From the NCBI RefSeq assembly GCF_000423205.1, contig NZ_AUHN01000009.1, positions 124,001 through 188,000 of the forward strand: a stretch of DNA of 64,000 nt. The letters are read 5' to 3'. Positions 25,089 through 38,273 of this stretch are shown one piece after another. This DNA is from Jonesia quinghaiensis DSM 15701 (GTDB lineage: Bacteria; Actinomycetota; Actinomycetes; Actinomycetales; Cellulomonadaceae). Positions within the stretch are counted from its first letter, which is position 1; each line of letters starts with the position of its first letter. The position numbers and the translations under genes were made by a program. The notes under the pieces were generated by a model. It saw only the letters and a program-made list of their open reading frames with translations, did no database searches and was not told where the DNA came from.

Positions 25089-25473
25089 GACGATCACAGT
25101 TAAAGTCCGCACCAACGCGGCCGATGAGTTAGGTCACAAGCCTGACAGCACGCAGAACATCAGCGAGAACCGCTGAGAATGGCCCCCATGCCGCCTCAAC
25201 GGGGCACGAAAACTTGCCCGCCCCAAATCTCACATTGCGAGATTTATATGTGTCGGACCGGTCAAACTCCCCATGACCCCACCACAGTGACCCCAACCAC
25301 CCACCACCACAGCAGGACCAAGGTCCGGGACCACAGGAACGCGCCTACCCTGCGCGCCTAAACGATTCACCCACTGTGCGAACACCACGCACATGCGATC
25401 AACTAGCCTTCTAGCACCGATGCCAAACTGCCCCACACGCACGGCACAACTACCCCATGGCGAGTTCTGCACC

Positions 25474-25503
25474 TTTACGGATCACACCGCGCTAGACCAT
25501 AGT
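25474..25503 (+). promoter_or_regulatory. Possible promoter of the GH6 cellulase
   Basis: TTTACG (25474-25479) and CATAGT (25498-25503) are 18 bases apart, 36 bp before the start codon. Both boxes are imperfect. No CebR-type TGGGAGCGCTCCCA operator is present. Confidence 0.25.
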
Positions 25504-25539
25504 CGGACAACAGGCATCGAACCCATCACAGGAGGTCAC

Positions 25540-26907
25540 ATGAGGAAACGTACCCTGAGTCTGCTCAGCACAACGGCACTCGTCGCTGCCGGACTAGTTC
25601 CCACAGCACTCATCACCGCAGCACCTGCCAGCGCCGCCGGAAACTGCAGCGTCGACTACACCATTGCCAGCTCGTGGCAAGGCGGATTCCAAGGCACCGT
25701 CACCGTGATCAACACGGGCAACGCCATCAACTCCTGGGAACTCACCTGGGAGGAGCCAACCGGCCAAGCCATCACCCAAGCGTGGAACACTCAGATCTCC
25801 CAAACAGGACGAACCGTGACGGCCAGCAACGCCTCATGGAACGGCCAACTAGCAAAGAACGGCTCAGCCCAATTCGGATTTATCGCCACTGGTGACTCCC
25901 CCACTGCACCGTCGCAGTTTTCACTCAACGGCATCTCCTGCTCAGGCGACACCGAGATCCCTGATCCACCAGACCCAGAACCAGAACCCACAGACAACCC
26001 AACGCCTGACCCCACCACCGATCCTGAACCAGAACCCACAGACGACCCCTCCGACCCAACCCAACCAGGGTCCAGCGAGCTGTTCGTCGACACATCCACC
26101 CAGGCCTACTCAGCGTGGGAACAGGCATCGGGAACCAACAAAGAACTTCTGGCAAAAATTGCCCTCACCCCCGCTGCCCGCTGGATCGGTGACTGGACAA
26201 GCAACGCAGACACTACAAACTCGGTACGTGAGTACACCACCGCAGCACACGAAGCCGGAGAAAAAGCGACCCTCGTTGCCTACGCAATCCCAGGGCGTGA
26301 CTGCGGACTTCACTCCTCCGGTGGAGTGTCCACCAGCGAATATGCTGGCTGGATCGATGCAGTGGCAGCAGGAATTGTCGGCGATCCGATCGTGATTCTT
26401 GAACCCGATGCACTAGCCCAACTGGGTGACTGTGATGGACAAGGTGACCGGGTCGGTTTCTTGGCATACGCTGCAGAAGAACTCAGTGACGCTGGCGCAG
26501 AGGTATACATCGATGCTGGACACAGCGGGTGGAAGTCCGCTCAGGACATCGCTCAGCGCCTCCAGCAAGTTGGTCTCGAGCACGCAGCAGGGTTCTCCCT
26601 GAACGTCTCGAACTACCAAACGACAGCCTCACAAATTGAGTACGGTAACCGCATCTCCGAACTCACCGGCGGCGCGAAGTTTGTTGTTGACACCTCACGC
26701 AACGGCAACGGTTCTAACGGCGAATGGTGCAACCCTCGCGGCCGTGCCCTTGGTGACAAGCCCGCACTTAAAGACGACGGCGCATTCCGCGGAACGTTGT
26801 GGATCAAGTTGCCTGGCGAATCAGACGGCAGCTGCAACGGCGGCCCTGGCGCTGGACAATGGTGGCAAGAAGGCGCTCTTGAGCTCGCCCGGAACGCTTC
26901 GTGGTAA
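25540..26907 (+). CDS. Secreted endo-beta-1,4-glucanase, CBM2-linker-GH6
   Basis: This protein of 455 residues hydrolyses cellulose outside the cell. Residues 1-33 are a signal peptide (MRKRTLSLL..., ending in ASA). Residues about 35-136 are a family 2 cellulose-binding module with its two cysteines (36 and 134) and surface tryptophans. Residues 137-178 are a Pro/Asp/Glu/Thr linker with PEPEPTD repeated twice. Residues 180-455 are a GH6 catalytic domain with 'YAIPGRDCG' (Asp254) and 'ILEPDAL' (Asp290, the catalytic acid). The compact domain, like Cellulomonas CenA, suggests an endoglucanase rather than a cellobiohydrolase. The start at the ATG preceded by AGGAGG is clear, although the frame stays open upstream. 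It sits alone on the plus strand between nuoA and menG. Confidence 0.95.
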   Translation: MRKRTLSLLSTTALVAAGLVPTALITAAPASAAGNCSVDYTIASSWQGGFQGTVTVINTGNAINSWELTWEEPTGQAITQAWNTQISQTGRTVTASNASWNGQLAKNGSAQFGFIATGDSPTAPSQFSLNGISCSGDTEIPDPPDPEPEPTDNPTPDPTTDPEPEPTDDPSDPTQPGSSELFVDTSTQAYSAWEQASGTNKELLAKIALTPAARWIGDWTSNADTTNSVREYTTAAHEAGEKATLVAYAIPGRDCGLHSSGGVSTSEYAGWIDAVAAGIVGDPIVILEPDALAQLGDCDGQGDRVGFLAYAAEELSDAGAEVYIDAGHSGWKSAQDIAQRLQQVGLEHAAGFSLNVSNYQTTASQIEYGNRISELTGGAKFVVDTSRNGNGSNGEWCNPRGRALGDKPALKDDGAFRGTLWIKLPGESDGSCNGGPGAGQWWQEGALELARNASW

Positions 26908-27743: not shown

Positions 27744-29099
27744 AGCATGCAGAACAACCCCGCACCTACTGTCGCTGACGCAGCGCACCCTTCTGCCCAA
27801 GAACCATCCTTGCTGGTTCACACGGTCGCTATTGAACCGTTGGGTACAGCAACAGACTCTCTTATTTCTTTGCTGCCGCGCACTGCCCCACTAGCGTGGG
27901 TACGCCGTGGTCAGGGCATCGTGGGCTGGGGTGAGGTGGCACGTATCTCTACCAGCGGCCCGGATCGTTTCGATCAAGCTGAAGCCTGGTGGGCGCGCAT
28001 CCACGGCAAAGCTGTGATTCGTGACGATGTGCAACAACCCGGAAGCGGTTTGGTGGCGTTTGGTTCGTTCGCCTTTTCCTACGCGTCCCAAGACCAATCC
28101 GTCATGGTGATTCCACGGGTTATTGTCGGGCGTCGCGGGGACACGTGGTGGCTCACCACCGTGACTGAGGCTGGTGCCGCTGCTCACACCAGCGCCCATG
28201 TTGACCACCTCACCGCGCACATGGATCACGTTCGCCGCCACGAACCTGTGCTGTCCCCTGGTGAGGTGCGCTTCACCCAGGGCACGCTCAGCTCTGAGCA
28301 GTGGATGGAAATTGTTGCCGACGCTGTTAATAGGATTCGCGGCGGGGAGCTCGACAAAATTGTGCTTGCCCGTGACCTGATCGCCACCACCGAACACCCA
28401 CTGGATTCCCGCCATGTGCTGACATACCTAGCAACCGCCTACAAGGATTGTTGGACGTTCAGTGTTGATGGGTTGGTGGGCGCTACCCCAGAACTTTTAG
28501 TCCGAGCAGAAAAGGGGCTTGCCACGTCCCGGGTTCTTGCTGGCACAATCCAACGCACTGGGGATGATGCCACCGACACCGCTCGTGCCGGTCTTCTTGC
28601 GCGGTCATCCAAAGACCTTGAAGAACACGAGTATGCGGTGATCTCTGTTGCCGATGCGCTGCGCCCGCACTGCACATCGTTGAACGTCCCTGAAGCCCCG
28701 TTTGTTCTTCACCTGCCCAACGTTCTTCACTTGGCCAGTGATGTCACCGGTGTCATTAACCCTCAACGTCATGAAACGTCGCTGAGTTTAGCGGCGTCTT
28801 TGCACCCAACTGCGGCGGTGTGCGGAACACCGACGATGAAAGCAGCACACACCATTGCCGACATTGAGCACATGGACCGGGCACGTTACGCCGGGCCTGT
28901 TGGTTGGCTGGGCGGTGACGGGGACGGTGAATGGGGAATCGCGTTGCGCTCCGCACAGTCTGACCCCACTAACCCACACCGGATGCGGTTATTTGCTGGC
29001 TGCGGGATTGTGGCCGCATCCTCACCTGTTGACGAACTAGCTGAAACTCGGGCAAAACTTGCCCCCATGATGTCAGCTCTGCAAGCTCCACGTCCCTGA
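27741..29099 (+). CDS. menF: Isochorismate synthase
   Basis: About 452 residues. It converts chorismate to isochorismate, the first step of menaquinone synthesis. The C-terminal chorismate-binding domain shows '[11 protein letters not shown]', '[16 protein letters not shown]', '[14 protein letters not shown]', '[12 protein letters not shown]' and '[15 protein letters not shown]', then '[24 protein letters not shown]'. These hold the magnesium-binding glutamates and the catalytic lysine of the family. The context (menG alongside, other men genes downstream) favours menaquinone over siderophore synthesis. The start is either the GTG at 27741 or the ATG at 27747. Confidence 0.9.
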
Positions 29100-29101
29100 C
29101 G

Positions 29102-29383
29102 TCAACGCCCCACGATTACCTGGATTTCGCTGTAAATTTCCATGAGATGTTCGCGGGGAACAACATGAATCTCTCCGCGCTGCCACAGCGCCATCGCAAC
29201 CCCAGGGACTGCGCTCAGCAACCCTTCATCAACCTGCTCTTCATGGGACACAGCAAATCGCAGTCGCACAAAACAATGACTCATTGACACCACATTGCCG
29301 GCTCCTCCAATGTATTCCAGCACGGCACAAGCAACCTGTCGTGGTGACGAATCATCTTGCAGCGCTGAAGGCATGGCGATCAC
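29102..29383 (-). CDS. Stand-alone PTS EIIB domain (glucose family)
   Basis: A 93-residue protein made only of a IIB domain. 'VLEYIGGAGNVVSMSHCFVRLRF' matches the IIB phosphorylation loop, with the reactive Cys37 and the arginines that follow, although the usual Thr after the Cys is Val39. The GTG start overlaps the bglG stop; an ATG at 29374 with AGCAGG before it is an alternative. No cognate IIC is attached, and bglF already carries its own IIB. It may pass phosphate to or from the regulator BglG or another EIIC. That is inference. Confidence 0.7.
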   Translation of the reverse strand: MIAMPSALQDDSSPRQVACAVLEYIGGAGNVVSMSHCFVRLRFAVSHEEQVDEGLLSAVPGVAMALWQRGEIHVVPREHLMEIYSEIQVIVGR

Positions 29384-30252
29384 CTGCTCTCAGCCGTGGG
29401 GGCATTGCTGCGCAATGGGGCGGTCAGGCGAGTGACATGTAGCGCCAAATACAACACCTCTTCATCAGTCACGTTCCACTGAAACAACTCACCCAGCCGG
29501 GCAGCCACGCGCCGGGCGGTTGCGTACTCCCGTGGCTGTGCTTCTTGAACAGCGGCAGTGATTCCGTCCCCTATAGGCAAAGTACTGGCGTGTGTTTGTT
29601 GCCGAAAGAACAAGAATCTCATGTGCGTAATGAAACGCGCGACAGCTGCTGATTCTTCATCAAGCGAAATGCCGTGGTCCTGCTCAATAATCTCAAAAGA
29701 AGCAGCGAGCGCTTTGGTCATTCGCATCACTGATTCCATATCGCCTGAACCATACTGTGCATTCACAAAATGGAGGGCAAGCGGGACTATTTCCTGTGGG
29801 CTAAGGCTGACATCAATAGTTTTTTCAATGTATTGATGAACATAGCGAGCAACTCGCACTTCTGCGGGGTATAGGTTTTCCACTTCCCAGACCAAGGGAT
29901 ACTCAATGTGTGCATTTTCACGCGCTCTCATGACGGCGAAGTTGACATGGTCCGCTAATGGAATAAGCACCCTTTCTGTGATGTGTTCACCAAGTTGTTC
30001 ACGGGCGTAGGGCAGGACATTTTCAATGGCCTCGATGATAGACAAAGGAATATCCGCAACGAAACTTGCGAGGCGTTCTACCGACGTATCGTGGGGCACA
30101 AAGGTGCGTTCTATACGTTCTTTATCGATAACGTCATTCGGATGAGCACCGAATCCAACTCCGCACCCCAAGATCACAACATCGCGCCCAGCATCATCCA
30201 ACCCCAGGACCACGTTGTTGTTAAAGACCCGTTTTACTTGCACAGTTGTCAC
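29380..30252 (-). CDS. bglG: Transcriptional antiterminator, BglG/LicT family
   Basis: RNA-binding antiterminator of 290 residues. Residues 1-57 are the co-antiterminator RNA-binding domain (VKRVFNNNVVLGLDD). Two PTS regulation domains follow: PRD1 with His102 and His161, PRD2 with His210 and His272. All four histidines that receive phosphate from the PTS are present. In the family, loss of phosphate from the transporter and gain of phosphate from HPr let the dimer bind a RAT hairpin and stop formation of a terminator. Two RAT elements that fit it lie upstream of bglF and of ptsH. It is 62 bp after the beta-glucosidase gene. Confidence 0.95.
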   Translation of the reverse strand: MTTVQVKRVFNNNVVLGLDDAGRDVVILGCGVGFGAHPNDVIDKERIERTFVPHDTSVERLASFVADIPLSIIEAIENVLPYAREQLGEHITERVLIPLADHVNFAVMRARENAHIEYPLVWEVENLYPAEVRVARYVHQYIEKTIDVSLSPQEIVPLALHFVNAQYGSGDMESVMRMTKALAASFEIIEQDHGISLDEESAAVARFITHMRFLFFRQQTHASTLPIGDGITAAVQEAQPREYATARRVAARLGELFQWNVTDEEVLYLALHVTRLTAPLRSNAPTAESR

Positions 30253-30313
30253 GTCCTTGGTTCAGCTGTTGTGGTTTGTGGCAGTTGCTGAAGGCTCTTG
30301 CTCACTGGAGTTG

Positions 30314-33671
<3,358 letters not shown>

Positions 33672-33736
33672 TCGATTCCTCCTTGAACCGAGCATGAACA
33701 GCATAGGTAGTTGTTCAGGTACTGGCGAAAACGACA

Positions 33737-33800
33737 ACAAAAAAGACCCAAGCCGCGCAGAGCGAACCCCTCAAAGGGTTCACTGCGAAACTTGGGTCTT
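33737..33800 (-). terminator. RAT-controlled intrinsic terminator in the bglF leader
   Basis: On the minus strand, AAGACCCAAG (33800-33791) pairs with CTTGGGTCTT (33752-33743), followed by six T residues. An inner stem with the loop CCCTTTGAGGGG adds stability. The 5' arm is shared with the RAT, so the two structures exclude each other. Confidence 0.93.
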
Positions 33801-33822
33801 GCCTGTCAGACAGTAACAATCC
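33795..33822 (-). promoter_or_regulatory. RAT antiterminator element of the bgl operon
   Basis: On the minus strand the sequence starts with GGATTGTTACTG and ends with CAGGCAAGACC, matching the consensus bound by BglG/LicT/SacY proteins. It overlaps the terminator by six bases. Binding of BglG should allow read-through into bglF-bglA-bglG-EIIB. Confidence 0.93.
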
Positions 33823-33834
33823 CGAACTCCGATT

Positions 33835-33864
33835 AGTATCAACCGATCTTTCCCTACCTGTCAA
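33835..33864 (-). promoter_or_regulatory. Promoter of the bgl operon
   Basis: TTGACA (33864-33859) and GATACT (33840-33835) are 18 bases apart on the minus strand, directly upstream of the RAT. The -35 box is perfect. Confidence 0.8.
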
Positions 33865-33904
33865 CCATAGACAGAACATCGATCCATCTGAGTACGATAA
33901 CGGC

Positions 33905-34516
33905 ATGCCGCTAACCCTGTTCCTTGTTCGTCATGGCCGAACTGTCTACAACGACACCGCACGCATGCAGGGCTGGTGCGACTCACCCATCACCGCCGAT
34001 GGTTTACGCATGGTGCGCGCTACAGCACACATGCTGGCCCACCAGCCTCTGGACGCCGTCTGGACAAGCCCATCAGGGCGGGCGGTAGAAACCGCTCAAG
34101 AAATCCTTGCCCATCACCCCAACACCCCGTTGCATGTGGATGATAATCTCCGAGAGCTTTCCTTCGGCAGTGACGAAGCTCGGCGCGAAGCTGAGGTTTT
34201 TGCTCAGCGAGACATCTACCAGACATTTCATGATGTCTTGACTGGAGACACCACGAGCTTCCCTGGCGGTGAAAACGGCTTGGAGTTTCGCACCCGCGTG
34301 CGTTCCGCCTTCACCACGATTGAGAACCACCACCCAGATGGTTGTGTCGCCGTCATCTCTCATGGGGTAACGCTCACAACGTATTTGTCCCTGATCAGCG
34401 AATCTCCGCTGATCACATCACTAGCAAATGCCTCAGTAAGCACCGTATCCATCGATCAAGGAAAGCCCAGCATCATCGAGGTCAATGCACTGCCCCACGA
34501 CATGTCCATACCGTAG
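33905..34516 (+). CDS. Histidine phosphatase superfamily protein
   Basis: A 203-residue phosphoglycerate-mutase-like phosphatase. 'LFLVRHGRTVYNDTARMQGWCDSPIT' contains the catalytic RHG (His10). 'SPSGRAVETAQ' and 'RELSFGSDEA' give further active-site residues, and 'VAVISHGVTLTTYL' gives the second histidine. The substrate is unknown; a sugar phosphate is plausible. It starts at an ATG with no ribosome-binding site, six bases after TACGAT, which predicts a leaderless mRNA. It lies between the divergent RAT-controlled bgl and ptsHI promoters. Confidence 0.85.
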   Translation: MPLTLFLVRHGRTVYNDTARMQGWCDSPITADGLRMVRATAHMLAHQPLDAVWTSPSGRAVETAQEILAHHPNTPLHVDDNLRELSFGSDEARREAEVFAQRDIYQTFHDVLTGDTTSFPGGENGLEFRTRVRSAFTTIENHHPDGCVAVISHGVTLTTYLSLISESPLITSLANASVSTVSIDQGKPSIIEVNALPHDMSIP

Positions 34517-34546
34517 GGTGGGCACATAACGCACTTTTCGAAGGGC

Positions 34547-34576
34547 TTGACCAGCAGATATCAGCTGAGCTATATA
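34547..34576 (+). promoter_or_regulatory. ptsH: Promoter of ptsHI
   Basis: TTGACC (34547-34552) and TATATA (34571-34576) are 18 bases apart, ten bases before the RAT element. Both boxes are close to consensus. Confidence 0.8.
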
Positions 34577-34585
34577 TGGAAGCAC

Positions 34586-34615
34586 GGATTGTTACTGAGC
34601 GATTCAGGCAAGACC
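34586..34615 (+). promoter_or_regulatory. RAT antiterminator element of ptsHI
   Basis: The element begins GGATTGTTACTG and ends CAGGCAAGACC, identical in both conserved blocks to the RAT before bglF. Only the apical loop differs. It predicts that one BglG protein controls both operons. Confidence 0.92.
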
Positions 34616-34653
34616 TAGGTGCCCGCAAATGCGGTATACCTAGGTCTTTTTTT
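34610..34653 (+). terminator. RAT-controlled intrinsic terminator in the ptsHI leader
   Basis: AAGACCTAGGT (34610-34620) pairs with ACCTAGGTCTT (34638-34648), followed by a run of T residues to 34653. The 5' arm overlaps the RAT by six bases. It should stop transcription before ptsH unless the antiterminator binds. Confidence 0.93.
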
Positions 34654-34706
34654 GTTGCATTCTTCCAGTGACGATCTTAGATAAAACCACCACGACAGGA
34701 AAAAGT

Positions 34707-34976
34707 ATGTTGCAACGACGCACCTATATCGGTTCCGCTCAAGGCCTCCATGCACGCCCGGCCTCACTACTGACCCAGGCTGTTACTGCCAGCGGGCACA
34801 CCATTTCTATCTCTCGCCCCGATGACACACCCGTGGCCGCAAACAGCACACTGATGGTGATGAGTTTGGCGTTGAAACACGGCGAAGAAGTTGTGCTGAG
34901 TTGCCCTCATGACTCTGGCAAGGACACCCTCGATGAACTTGCCGAACTAGTGGAAACAAACTGGGACGCCTCGTGA
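34707..34976 (+). CDS. ptsH: Phosphocarrier protein HPr
   Basis: General PTS phosphocarrier of 89 residues that takes phosphate from enzyme I and gives it to sugar-specific EIIA domains. The active His15 lies in GLHARPAS. A serine near residue 47 (ANSTLMVMSLAL) matches the position that HPr kinase modifies in firmicutes, although such a kinase is usually absent in actinobacteria. The ATG at 34707 has AGGAAA before it. The stop overlaps the ptsI start. Confidence 0.97.
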   Translation: MLQRRTYIGSAQGLHARPASLLTQAVTASGHTISISRPDDTPVAANSTLMVMSLALKHGEEVVLSCPHDSGKDTLDELAELVETNWDAS

Positions 34977-36685
34977 CGGACGTTGTTGAATCCCTTGTCA
35001 TACAAGGACAAGGCATAGGCCATGGGTGTGCTGTTGCACCGGTTTTTCGGTTCACCGCAAACAACTCCGCACCCCGAAACTCTGATGCGCCACCCCACGA
35101 TGAGAACCCACAAACGGCTATCGCGAGAACAATGGACGCGATTGAGTGTGTTGCCAGTGACCTCAATCAGCACGCCCACAGCTCCGACGGCGACCTGCGC
35201 AACATCCTGCTCGCGACTGTGGCCATCGCGCGTGACCCGGCACTTGCCGATGACATCTCCCAACGCATCACAGACGGGCAATCGCCGACCAGCGCAGTCG
35301 AGATGAGCATCGAACACTTTGCCACCATGTTTAGTGCAGCAGGAGGTCCTCTCTCGCAGCGCGTCACTGATCTGTATAGCGTCCGCGATCGGGTTGTCTC
35401 TCTGCTTGACGGCAGAGCCATCAACCGAGCTTCAGAGCTCACTATCCCTAGCGTGATCTGCGCGGAAGACCTTTCTCCGGCTGACACTGCTGCACTCAAC
35501 GTGAAACTTGTCAGAGCCATAGTGACCGAGCAAGGCGGCACAACAGGGCACACAGCTATTATCGCTGCTCAACGTGGGATCCCTTGCGTTGTTCGCGCCC
35601 CAGGCAGCGCCTCTCTAGCTGATGGCACATTGGTTGCTGTTGACGCATACACCGGCAGTGTCATAGTACATCCCACGGACGAACAGGTATCCGCATTACT
35701 CAGCAAAGCGCATAACCGGCACGTAGCGACAAAAAGTACCGCACCAGGAGCGACACAAGACGGCCATGCTGTTGCACTCTTAGCAAATATTGGCACCAGC
35801 CAAGACGCCACTGACCTATCAGAATCAGCGGCTCAAGGTGTGGGGCTCTTCCGCACTGAAGTGCTCTTTTTCGACTCCTCGCACGCACCGTCACGCCACG
35901 AGCAGTTACCTCACTACCGGTTCGTTGCCGAGCAATTAGGTGAGCGGAAGGTCGTGATCCGCACCCTGGACGCAGGTGCCGACAAACCGTTGTCCTTTGC
36001 ACACCATGACATTGAGGAAAACCCTGCTCTGGGCGTACGCGGCTATCGCTTGGTGCGGACCATGCCAGAACTCCTCGAGGAGCAACTCGCAGCACTCGGA
36101 ACGCTGGTTCAGCAACTGCCAACAAATCAACGCGACCGCATATGGGTCATGGCTCCGATGATTTCTACCTCTGCTGAGGCGACGCATTTTGCCCGGCTTG
36201 CTCGGGCTCATGGCATCGAACGCGTAGGAGTCATGATCGAAGTACCAGCGGCTGCGCTAAGAGCCCACGAGATCATGCGTGACATTGATTTCGTGTCGAT
36301 CGGATCAAATGATCTTGCCCAATACACGATGGCAGCAGACCGCATGCACACCGGTTTATCGGACCTTCTTGATGCGTGGCAACCTGCAGTCCTCGACCTC
36401 ATTGCCGCAACATGTGAGGCGGGAAAACGCCAGGCAAAACCTGTGGGAGTGTGCGGAGAATCCGCCGCTGACCCACTCATGGCACTAGTCCTTACGGGGT
36501 TAGGGGTCTCCAGTTTGTCGATGTCGCCCGATGCCCTACCGCTGGTGCGATGGATACTCTCACGCCACACCATTGCACAATGCCAAGACTTAGCGGCCGC
36601 AGCAAGGAATTGCGCTGACGCAGAATCTGCGCGCAACGCAGTGTGGAGCCAACTAGACCAGGAAACCCGGTCCTTCCTCATGTGA
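34973..36685 (+). CDS. ptsI: PTS enzyme I (phosphoenolpyruvate-protein phosphotransferase)
   Basis: A 570-residue cytoplasmic enzyme that starts the PTS cascade with phosphoenolpyruvate. The phosphorylated His193 is in GGTTGHTAIIA. The PEP-binding barrel has 'GVGLFRTEVLFFDSS', 'RTLDAGADKPLSF', 'IGSNDLAQYTMAADR' and the catalytic cysteine in 'GVCGESAADP'. The GTG start overlaps the ptsH stop by four bases. Confidence 0.97.
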   Translation: MTDVVESLVIQGQGIGHGCAVAPVFRFTANNSAPRNSDAPPHDENPQTAIARTMDAIECVASDLNQHAHSSDGDLRNILLATVAIARDPALADDISQRITDGQSPTSAVEMSIEHFATMFSAAGGPLSQRVTDLYSVRDRVVSLLDGRAINRASELTIPSVICAEDLSPADTAALNVKLVRAIVTEQGGTTGHTAIIAAQRGIPCVVRAPGSASLADGTLVAVDAYTGSVIVHPTDEQVSALLSKAHNRHVATKSTAPGATQDGHAVALLANIGTSQDATDLSESAAQGVGLFRTEVLFFDSSHAPSRHEQLPHYRFVAEQLGERKVVIRTLDAGADKPLSFAHHDIEENPALGVRGYRLVRTMPELLEEQLAALGTLVQQLPTNQRDRIWVMAPMISTSAEATHFARLARAHGIERVGVMIEVPAAALRAHEIMRDIDFVSIGSNDLAQYTMAADRMHTGLSDLLDAWQPAVLDLIAATCEAGKRQAKPVGVCGESAADPLMALVLTGLGVSSLSMSPDALPLVRWILSRHTIAQCQDLAAAARNCADAESARNAVWSQLDQETRSFLM

Positions 36686-36706
36686 TGGGCTGTGATAAAC
36701 AAAGGA

Positions 36707-36758
36707 CACAGCGTGGGTGTTGTGCACGTGGAGGATCGTGCGCAACACCCACGCTGTG
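36707..36758 (+). terminator. Hairpin between ptsI and htrA (convergent)
   Basis: Arms 36707-36728 and 36737-36758 pair over 22 bases with one wobble, around an eight-base loop. No T-tract is present. It lies between two convergent genes and could act for both. Confidence 0.65.
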
Positions 36759-36800
36759 GTGGTACCTCGTTGAGTCACCAGCTATATCAGTAACTGATGA

Positions 36801-38273
36801 TCACCCTTGGCGACCTGGACCAGAGCCAAACATGTCTGACAAGTCAGGGATGTTGTTGGGGTTTGTTGGGTCAGTTGACTGAGAGTCCTGTGAGGATTCC
36901 TCTTGCGGAACCGTGGTCGCCTCTTCAGTTTTTGTTGCCAACGTGACAGTCACTTCGACGTACTCGCCGTCCCGGATGATCCCGAGCGGCACTTGTTGGC
37001 CTGATTGCAGTTCACGAACCAAACCGGTCAGCGCTTCAGCGCCTGTCACTGACTTCCCATTGATGGACACAATGATGTCCTCGGGTTGCACTCCCGCTTC
37101 CGCTGCCGGTGACCCTTGGGTCACCTCAGCAACAACTGCCCCCTGACGCGTGGCGCCGTCAACTTTCCCAGTACCGTCAGTCATCGATACACCAAGGAAT
37201 GCGTGTTCAGCTTCCCCGTTGTCGATGAGCTGGTCACCAATGTTTTGGGCCAAGTTTGACGGGATGGCAAAACCAAGTCCAATAGAGCCCGAACTTGAGG
37301 AGCTTTGGGACCCTTGGGACATGGTCGCAATCGATGAGGTGATACCGATGACCTGGCCTTTGGCGTTAAACAGTGGGCCGCCAGAGTTCCCTGGGTTGAT
37401 GGCAGCATCAATTTGGATTGCGTTGGTGACTACAAGGGTGCCATCTTCGGTTTGCGCAGTGGTTACTGGGCGGTTCAATGCGGAGACGATGCCTGTGGTT
37501 GCGGTTTGTGACAAGCCCAACGGGTTACCGATAGCGATGACTGAATCGCCAACGGTCACAGCGTCAGAGTCAGCGAATGTTGCAGCGGTGAGGTCTGAGG
37601 GTGGGTCAGTCAATGTGATAACGGCAAGGTCAGTTGCTGCGTCGAGACCGGTGATTGTTGCATCGTAGATGCGGCCATCGTCGAGGGTGACTGTGATTTT
37701 TCCGTTTGTTGCGCCTTCAACCACGTGGTTGTTGGTGAGGATGCGACCATCAGTTCCGATAATGACACCGGAGCCTTGCCCATCACCACTGGTCGACGTG
37801 ACTTCAATGGCGACCACGGTTTGTGACACAGCAGCGCTCACTGCCTGCCAGTCAGGGTTGGTTGAGGTGGAGTTAGCAACAGGGACGGTTACCGCTTCCG
37901 GTGCTTCACTAGCGGTGTTTGTGGTGGTAGCCGGTTCGTTATCGCTGGCCGTGAACGCACCTGTTGCGGCTGCTGTCCCCAGCGAAGCCAGTAGTGCTGA
38001 TGCCACGGCTGTGGCTGCGACGGGCGCCCAGATCCGCTGCTTGCCTGCTGGTTTTTCTTGTGTTTCCAGTGGTGCGGGTGGGGCTGGTGTTGCGTGCGCC
38101 TGGGTTGGCGGCACACTGGCATACCCGCTCGCCTGTGCAGACGTTGGCGCTGGGGGCGCCGGCGGCTGTGGCACTGCGGGGATTGGTGCGGTGGTGTGCG
38201 CGTCTGCTGCACGAGGTGTGGTGGGGCGTTGGGCTTCCGGCTGGTCCGGGGTGAGTGAGTTGTTGTCTGTCAT
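36801..38273 (-). CDS. HtrA/DegP-family serine protease with PDZ domain
   Basis: This S1C protease of 490 residues is anchored in the membrane. Residues 1-75 are a Pro/Ala/Thr-rich cytoplasmic tail, residues about 82-105 a membrane helix, and residues about 140-340 a trypsin-like domain with the triad in 'LTNNHVVEG', 'DLAVITL' and 'NPGNSGGPLF'. A PDZ domain follows ('EVTQGSPAAEAGVQPEDIIVSINGKSVTG'), then an acidic, Ser-rich tail. It degrades or refolds damaged envelope proteins. The ATG is preceded by AAGGAGG. It is separated from menD by about 70 bp and is probably independent. Confidence 0.93.
   Translation of the reverse strand: MTDNNSLTPDQPEAQRPTTPRAADAHTTAPIPAVPQPPAPPAPTSAQASGYASVPPTQAHATPAPPAPLETQEKPAGKQRIWAPVAATAVASALLASLGTAAATGAFTASDNEPATTTNTASEAPEAVTVPVANSTSTNPDWQAVSAAVSQTVVAIEVTSTSGDGQGSGVIIGTDGRILTNNHVVEGATNGKITVTLDDGRIYDATITGLDAATDLAVITLTDPPSDLTAATFADSDAVTVGDSVIAIGNPLGLSQTATTGIVSALNRPVTTAQTEDGTLVVTNAIQIDAAINPGNSGGPLFNAKGQVIGITSSIATMSQGSQSSSSSGSIGLGFAIPSNLAQNIGDQLIDNGEAEHAFLGVSMTDGTGKVDGATRQGAVVAEVTQGSPAAEAGVQPEDIIVSINGKSVTGAEALTGLVRELQSGQQVPLGIIRDGEYVEVTVTLATKTEEATTVPQEESSQDSQSTDPTNPNNIPDLSDMFGSGPGRQG

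Follow-up and report, generated by a model that had tools for sequence, protein, structure and literature searches.

Antiterminators of the BglG family serve as read-outs of PTS phosphorylation. The bgl leaders of E. coli and B. subtilis (LicT) combine the same ribonucleic antiterminator (RAT) as the locus described here with an overlapping terminator, a BglG partner and BglF-BglA genes, and the GlcT leader of B. subtilis precedes the glucose transporter gene ptsG. In actinobacteria, PTS genes often occur in several copies.

The ptsH-ptsI operon of B. subtilis ptsGHI is placed under the GlcT antiterminator (PMC2222622), with a ptsHI promoter located downstream of ptsG (PMC6148471); PDB entry 3rio bears the name PtsGHI operon antiterminator. 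Reporter assays in C. acetobutylicum have probed a RAT consensus (PMC12628678). In Corynebacterium glutamicum, ptsI and ptsH belong to a fructose-PTS cluster, and strain ATCC 13032 carries a BglG-family pseudogene only (PMC2222622). Actinobacterial ptsH/ptsI duplications are discussed in PMC2405797, in whose text the term 'antiterminator' does not occur. The mechanism considered below builds on work on BglG, LicT and SacY antitermination (PMC9981650, PMC12628678) and on the phosphorylation of BglG and LicT by HPr (PMC6850760).

There is thus a precedent for an antiterminator acting on a ptsH-ptsI operon. At the locus analyzed here, the RAT immediately precedes ptsH and is presumably recognized by a BglG-type protein; no such arrangement was found in the accessible parts of the open literature. 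As in the GlcT-ptsGHI system, a CAT-PRD-PRD antiterminator and a RAT/terminator would govern an operon with ptsH and ptsI. Unlike that system, the RAT and terminator lie directly before ptsH with no EII gene between, the expected inducer is a beta-glucoside, and the pair looks like an accessory copy. The divergent bglF arm is an ordinary bgl-type leader, sharing with the C. acetobutylicum bgl leader (PMC12628678) the RAT sequence, the terminator overlap, the BglG partner and the BglF-BglA genes. In contrast to the bgl leaders of E. coli, B. subtilis and C. acetobutylicum, which stand before EII, hydrolase and regulator genes, the second arm here carries HPr and EI. The attachment of an HPr-EI pair to one sugar transporter recalls actinobacterial fru operons, of which the genome under study also has one; fru control in C. 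glutamicum relies on the DNA-binding repressor SugR (PMC2222622), whereas here antitermination is predicted. The phosphate donors themselves would then be among the antiterminator targets, in several recurring gene orders. We put the probability at roughly 0.8 that positions 34547-34706 hold a promoter and a BglG/LicT-type attenuator controlling a beta-glucoside-dedicated HPr-EI pair.

The ptsH leader and its competing folds

The window, i.e., the whole 64-kb stretch of DNA that was analyzed, had previously been described in a sequence-only reading, whose observation of a promoter, a RAT and an overlapping intrinsic terminator before ptsH was confirmed at the level of predicted elements. The RAT (34586-34615, forward strand), a textbook example, was recognized by its exact motif, by the RAT covariance model R1 and by compensatory changes. 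Its core, GGATTGTTACTG, occurs exactly twice in the 64 kb, at 34586 (+) and 33822 (-). The covariance model, which was trained on 36 RATs from the window and related genomes, both window RATs among them, scored 43.2 bits at 34586-34615 and 41.9 bits at 33795-33822, the next best match in the window reaching 13.6; together with the exact motif, this bears out the RAT reported earlier. The element matches 22 of the 23 fixed bases of the reporter-tested C. acetobutylicum consensus (PMC12628678). A combined RAT-plus-terminator pattern gave two matches without substitution in the real window, and 100 dinucleotide shuffles of the window gave none without substitution and five with up to four. Rfam at gathering scores returned no match in the 64-kb window.

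The intrinsic terminator (34610-34653, +) was identified from the minimum-energy fold of 34575-34660, which contains a stem at 34610-34648 (z -4.1) followed by a run of seven T (34647-34653), two of them inside the stem. Six bases, 34610-34615, are common to the RAT and the terminator, so that both the coordinates and the overlap proposed earlier are correct. Upstream lies the promoter-like site (34547-34576, +), composed of a -35 box TTGACC (34547-34552), an 18 bp spacer and a -10-like TATATA (34571-34576) without the final T. A promoter/terminator consensus scan of 34200-37500 missed both this promoter and the ptsHI terminator. The wording 'near-consensus promoter' was therefore generous, given the absent T, but the site itself is supported by relatives. 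TTGAC occurs no more than 60 nt ahead of the RAT in 28 of 29 HPr leaders, many of which are close kin, versus 1 of 29 bglF leaders; TTGAC together with a suitably spaced -10-like box is present in 26 of the 29 and in none of the 29, respectively. The HPr arm thus has its own promoter-like site, rare in bglF leaders.

Folding of the leader RNA in both states, proposed earlier as a check, yielded -31.5 kcal/mol for the best fold, which is the terminator, versus -18.6 kcal/mol with the RAT enforced. The two folds are mutually exclusive, the enforced RAT removing the T-adjacent half of the terminator stem. According to this model, the terminator fold should win over the RAT in the ptsHI leader without protein. 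The isolated RAT is not its own best fold either (-5.0 enforced vs -6.3), which suggests that the RAT needs protein.

The alignment of 36 distinct RATs reveals a well-kept stem, in which 97.5% of stem cells are standard pairs. Four of the ten pairs are changed on both sides, with 23 such cells in all versus a shuffle mean of 6.2; one of these four, the pair of columns 13-23, does not form in 9 of 35 sequences. Column 31 (34612 here; the fourth base from the RAT 3' end) is G or A and lies in the RAT internal loop, yet is paired in the terminator. Across 59 distinct leaders, this base and its terminator partner form G-C in 38 and A-T in 21, with no mismatch, a count in which the terminator finder could itself use the column-31 base. 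A recount with a terminator criterion independent of column 31 gave 25 G-C and 17 A-T pairs, i.e., 42 of 42. The covariation supports the RAT/terminator overlap as a maintained feature.

The divergent module and its antiterminator

The leader belongs to a gene block at 29102-36685 with two divergent arms; the GC content is 53.8% in this block and 58.0% elsewhere in the window. On the forward strand, ptsH (34707-34976) encodes an HPr of 89 aa, identified by PF00381 (63.4 bits), by TIGR01003 above its cut-off and by alignment to solved HPrs, with the active-site motif GLHARPA present. The ptsI gene (34973-36685), whose start overlaps the ptsH stop by four bases, encodes an enzyme I (EI) of 570 aa with PF05524, PF00391 and PF02896 domains and TIGR01417 above its cut-off; the residues that we take to be the active-site His and Cys align with those of solved EIs. 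The interval from bglF to the ptsHI leader contains a gene of the histidine phosphatase superfamily (33905-34516, +; PF00300), which we consider part of the module as judged by its absence together with the module from the congener described below.

A second RAT, absent from the sequence-only reading, is located on the reverse strand in the bglF operon leader (33795-33822; exact motif) and overlaps a terminator (33739-33800, -) recognized by its fold and T run. The downstream bglF gene (31824-33671, -) encodes a beta-glucoside EIIBCA (TIGR01995, 687.5 bits, above cut-off). Its listed open reading frame starts at TTG 33740, inside its own leader terminator, and translation more likely begins at ATG 33671, which follows AGGAGG. 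It is followed by bglA (30314-31810, -; GH1, PF00232). The NCBIfam families that score highest for its product are 6-phospho-beta-glucosidases, none of which reaches its cut-off (at best 618.4 of 623); the product is probably a 6-phospho-beta-glucosidase, and the true start is probably internal to the listed frame. A few kb from the bgl module, the gene at 25393-26907 (+) encodes a GH6 cellulase that carries a cellulose-binding domain of the CBM2 type.

The bglG gene (29380-30252, -) encodes a BglG/LicT-type antiterminator with a CAT_RBD domain and two PRDs. The protein aligns with LicT (1tlv) across both PRDs and has His at the four positions that are presumably those phosphorylated in LicT. 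In the NCBIfam comparison it reached 230.5 bits for LicT (cut-off 300) and 187.6 bits for GlcT (cut-off 320); an assignment as GlcT was rejected, and by these scores the protein is a BglG-family member assigned to neither. The end of bglG is overlapped by a gene for a stand-alone EIIB domain protein of 93 aa (29102-29383, -; PF00367, motif HCFVRLRF). By the HCxxRLR motif, a small EIIB follows bglG in 7 of 38 copies, and three further matches look like the next bglF. The stand-alone EIIB could act on BglG.

As the genome search turned up no CAT_RBD gene besides bglG, its product is the likely effector of the ptsHI RAT, and with two RAT-terminators and one BglG-type gene found, one protein probably opens both arms. 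The earlier claim that ptsHI depends on BglG encoded at 29380 is supported to the extent of the RAT/terminator and the single CAT_RBD gene found; the dependence itself is what we infer from them. Without a beta-glucoside, phosphorylated BglF would keep BglG inactive, the RAT would not be held, the overlapping terminator would form, and ptsHI transcription would mostly stop at about 34653. With a beta-glucoside, BglF would draw phosphate away from BglG, whose dimers would bind the RAT near the transcript 5' end and take the six shared bases from the terminator, letting polymerase enter ptsHI. The same BglG would open the leader of bglF-bglA-bglG-EIIB on the other strand, so that transporter, hydrolase, regulator and the phosphate-donor pair would rise together. 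More phosphorylated HPr could further activate BglG through its PRDs, which would amount to positive feedback. BglG binding, antitermination in cells, PRD phosphorylation and the feedback at ptsHI are steps that we infer by analogy, and the HPr-BglG loop is plausible from established PRD biology. A testable question follows, namely, whether coupling HPr and EI to BglG produces memory or all-or-none induction.

How tightly such a switch would close is a matter of degree. The terminator hairpin of the ptsHI arm is weaker than that of the bglF arm (-24.4 vs -37.9 kcal/mol), and the same holds for 18 of 19 loci with both, many of them close kin, with L030 as the exception. Basal read-through into ptsHI could hence be high and induction small, i.e., the leader could act as a leaky switch, with a steady basal level that BglG boosts few-fold. 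However, a hairpin of this kind with its T run should still terminate well, and energy alone is no predictor of leakiness; we regard this reading as possible but rather doubtful. Within the preferred reading of a BglG-controlled attenuator, the weaker HPr-arm hairpin might, speculatively, keep a basal supply.

Distribution of the RAT-HPr arrangement in relatives

Of 396 genomes from the order, 12 contained a strict RAT pattern, and a CAT_RBD match was found in 31 of 200 genomes of the family sample. These 31 genomes together with G312, G103, G012 and G030 formed a set of 35; the genomes were chosen mostly for BglG and many of their leaders are close kin, so that the counts below are not independent events. 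Genes of high-GC relatives were located by tblastn, as longest-ORF annotation is misleading there. The set contained 77 EI places, 115 HPr places (DhaM-type included) and 94 RAT places, three of them below 20 bits. A RAT was located 63-144 bp upstream of 30 of the 115 HPr places, in 26 of the 35 genomes. An EI after a RAT-preceded HPr accounted for 18 of the 77 EI places, a count in which an EI could be missed for some HPr genes at contig edges.

The search of relatives for the same leader, suggested in the sequence-only reading, revealed that the layout recurs, with a RAT directly before HPr in 24 of the 31 BglG-bearing family genomes. The sequence-only reading had named, as evidence against BglG control, close relatives that retain bglG but have lost the RAT/terminator; the outcome is mixed but mostly favorable to such control, with 7 of the 31 having no RAT directly before HPr. 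In four genomes (G425, G439, G464 and G469), HPr and EI are co-directional behind bglF and bglG, with one RAT; in G524, HPr follows bglG and no RAT was found; G401 and G443 showed neither RAT-HPr nor HPr-EI behind bglG. Outside the family, G103 displays the same divergent layout, with the RAT upper stem changed on both sides, and G012, from a third family, has a RAT-HPr at 28.2 bits.

The gene orders observed were RAT-HPr-EI, RAT-HPr-EI-bglA, RAT-HPr-bglA and RAT-HPr alone. RAT-terminators directly before bglA were also detected (L125:1535-1565 (-), L144:5243-5272 (-) and L149:9682-9711 (+)); in L144 and L149 the RAT-bglA order lacks HPr, and their leaders, promoter-like site included, resemble the HPr type. 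In three loci (L142, L146 and L177), RAT-HPr is followed by bglA with no EI match between or behind, which suggests that HPr alone was recruited to the regulon. The RAT-HPr-EI locus of G541 is located 120 kb from the nearest bglG, and those of G544 and G548 are on contigs without bglG, next to genes resembling glmU and pth.

A search of named genomes with the window EI yielded 42 loci, many with fruA, and none of the 42 contained a RAT by a pattern search allowing up to three substitutions. In a class survey of 394 genomes under strict filters, RATs were present in 10 genomes, the window genome included. No HPr adjoined a RAT in the short loci of the other nine; a bglF relative was located downstream in six and no query match in three. 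The queries likewise found nothing in longer stretches from G635, G681 and G778. The earlier statement that RATs of this class normally stand before EII or glycosidase genes fits this sample. A RAT before ptsH could serve as a sequence mark by which to recognize actinobacterial HPr-EI pairs dedicated to a single sugar.

Dedicated or general phosphate donors

The sequence-only reading had called ptsHI the general PTS operon, in which case all PTS sugar uptake would depend on BglG. The window pair is not the sole HPr and EI of its genome, which encodes three EIs and three HPr-domain proteins, two stand-alone HPrs and one of DhaM type. On C1, an HPr-EI pair shares its operon with two further genes. 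One encodes a fructose EIIBC, with a TIGR01427 score above the cut-off. The other encodes a 1-phosphofructokinase-type PfkB kinase, which scores high enough for the hexose-kinase subfamily but falls 1.8 bits short of the 1-phosphofructokinase cut-off. The third HPr domain belongs to the DhaM-type protein (EIIA-man plus HPr), encoded behind Dak1 and Dak2 genes. The third EI, on C3 (L013, G000:C3, about 274,850-277,480), has no adjacent HPr and adjoins an EIIA_1 gene and an EIIB domain. No EIIC was seen beside this set; a C3 gene first taken as EIIC proved to be a polysaccharide pyruvyl transferase. PF02378 found bglF alone in the window genome and missed the fructose EIIC. The set, also kept in the congener G312 (L151), could have a regulatory role or work with an EIIC encoded elsewhere.

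Among the genomes sampled, G312 is the single member of the same genus, and it lacks the module. By blastn, window positions 27894-29085 and 36803-37889 align to places 48 bp apart in G312, and the block 29102-36685, from EIIB, bglG, bglA and bglF to the phosphatase gene and RAT-ptsHI, is missing as a unit. The query proteins gave no match in the matching 40-kb region, and no CAT_RBD match was found in G312. The congener retains two places each for EI and the HPr domain. The ptsHI copy is thus gained or lost along with the beta-glucoside genes. The label of a general operon thus did not hold, and window ptsHI looks like a beta-glucoside-dedicated accessory pair, sugar-induced and distinct from the cell's general set, as judged by gene content; the window EI could also serve other transporters.

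The one observation that favors general dependence on BglG comes from a different species. In G209, a genome on one contig, a single EI was found (PF05524, two candidates, one match), and it lies in RAT-HPr-EI-bglA. PF02378 identified three EIICs there, namely, bglF, a fructose EIIBC that exceeds the TIGR01427 cut-off, and a Glc/GlcNAc-type EIIC. The last is closest in NCBIfam to GlcNAc and glucose transporters, without reaching the cut-offs, and an EIIA gene lies in its vicinity. Provided that the search overlooked no EI, the whole of PTS transport in G209 would depend on a RAT-controlled gene, and the earlier idea of a general operon may apply there. For the window genome, with its two further EIs, further stand-alone HPr and fru-operon pair, and with a congener that lacks the window ptsHI, general dependence is very improbable.

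Returning to the dedicated, BglG-controlled pair, we tentatively suggest, at odds somewhat against it, a family-wide design in which PTS phosphate donors are repeatedly wired under the antiterminator that they phosphorylate. Such a loop could give bistable or history-dependent use of beta-glucosides, and in G209, should the RAT-controlled EI be the sole one, it would make fructose and glucose/GlcNAc PTS uptake hostage to beta-glucosides or to leakage of the attenuator.

The hairpin might instead mainly terminate the upstream phosphatase gene, after whose end at 34516 it forms a strong fold, with a ptsHI promoter after 34653 and little effect of the RAT, but a phosphatase gene precedes only 8 of the 29 HPr leaders and is absent within 600 nt upstream in the other 21, 26 of the 29 have the promoter-like site before the RAT, the RAT is kept with compensatory changes, and the scan lists no promoter in 34654-34706 (the same scan missed the pre-RAT promoter); this reading is very improbable as well.

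In an EI tree of 40 rows, built by a quick method, the window EI is on a long branch (1.32). It falls into a group with support of 98 that also contains RAT-EIs, fru-EIs and a small number of further EIs, with C3-type EIs apart. The RAT-EIs do not form one clade, and the tree is compatible with a single origin of RAT-EI as well as with several. One ten-row subclade consists of nine RAT-EIs and one EI from a contig end.
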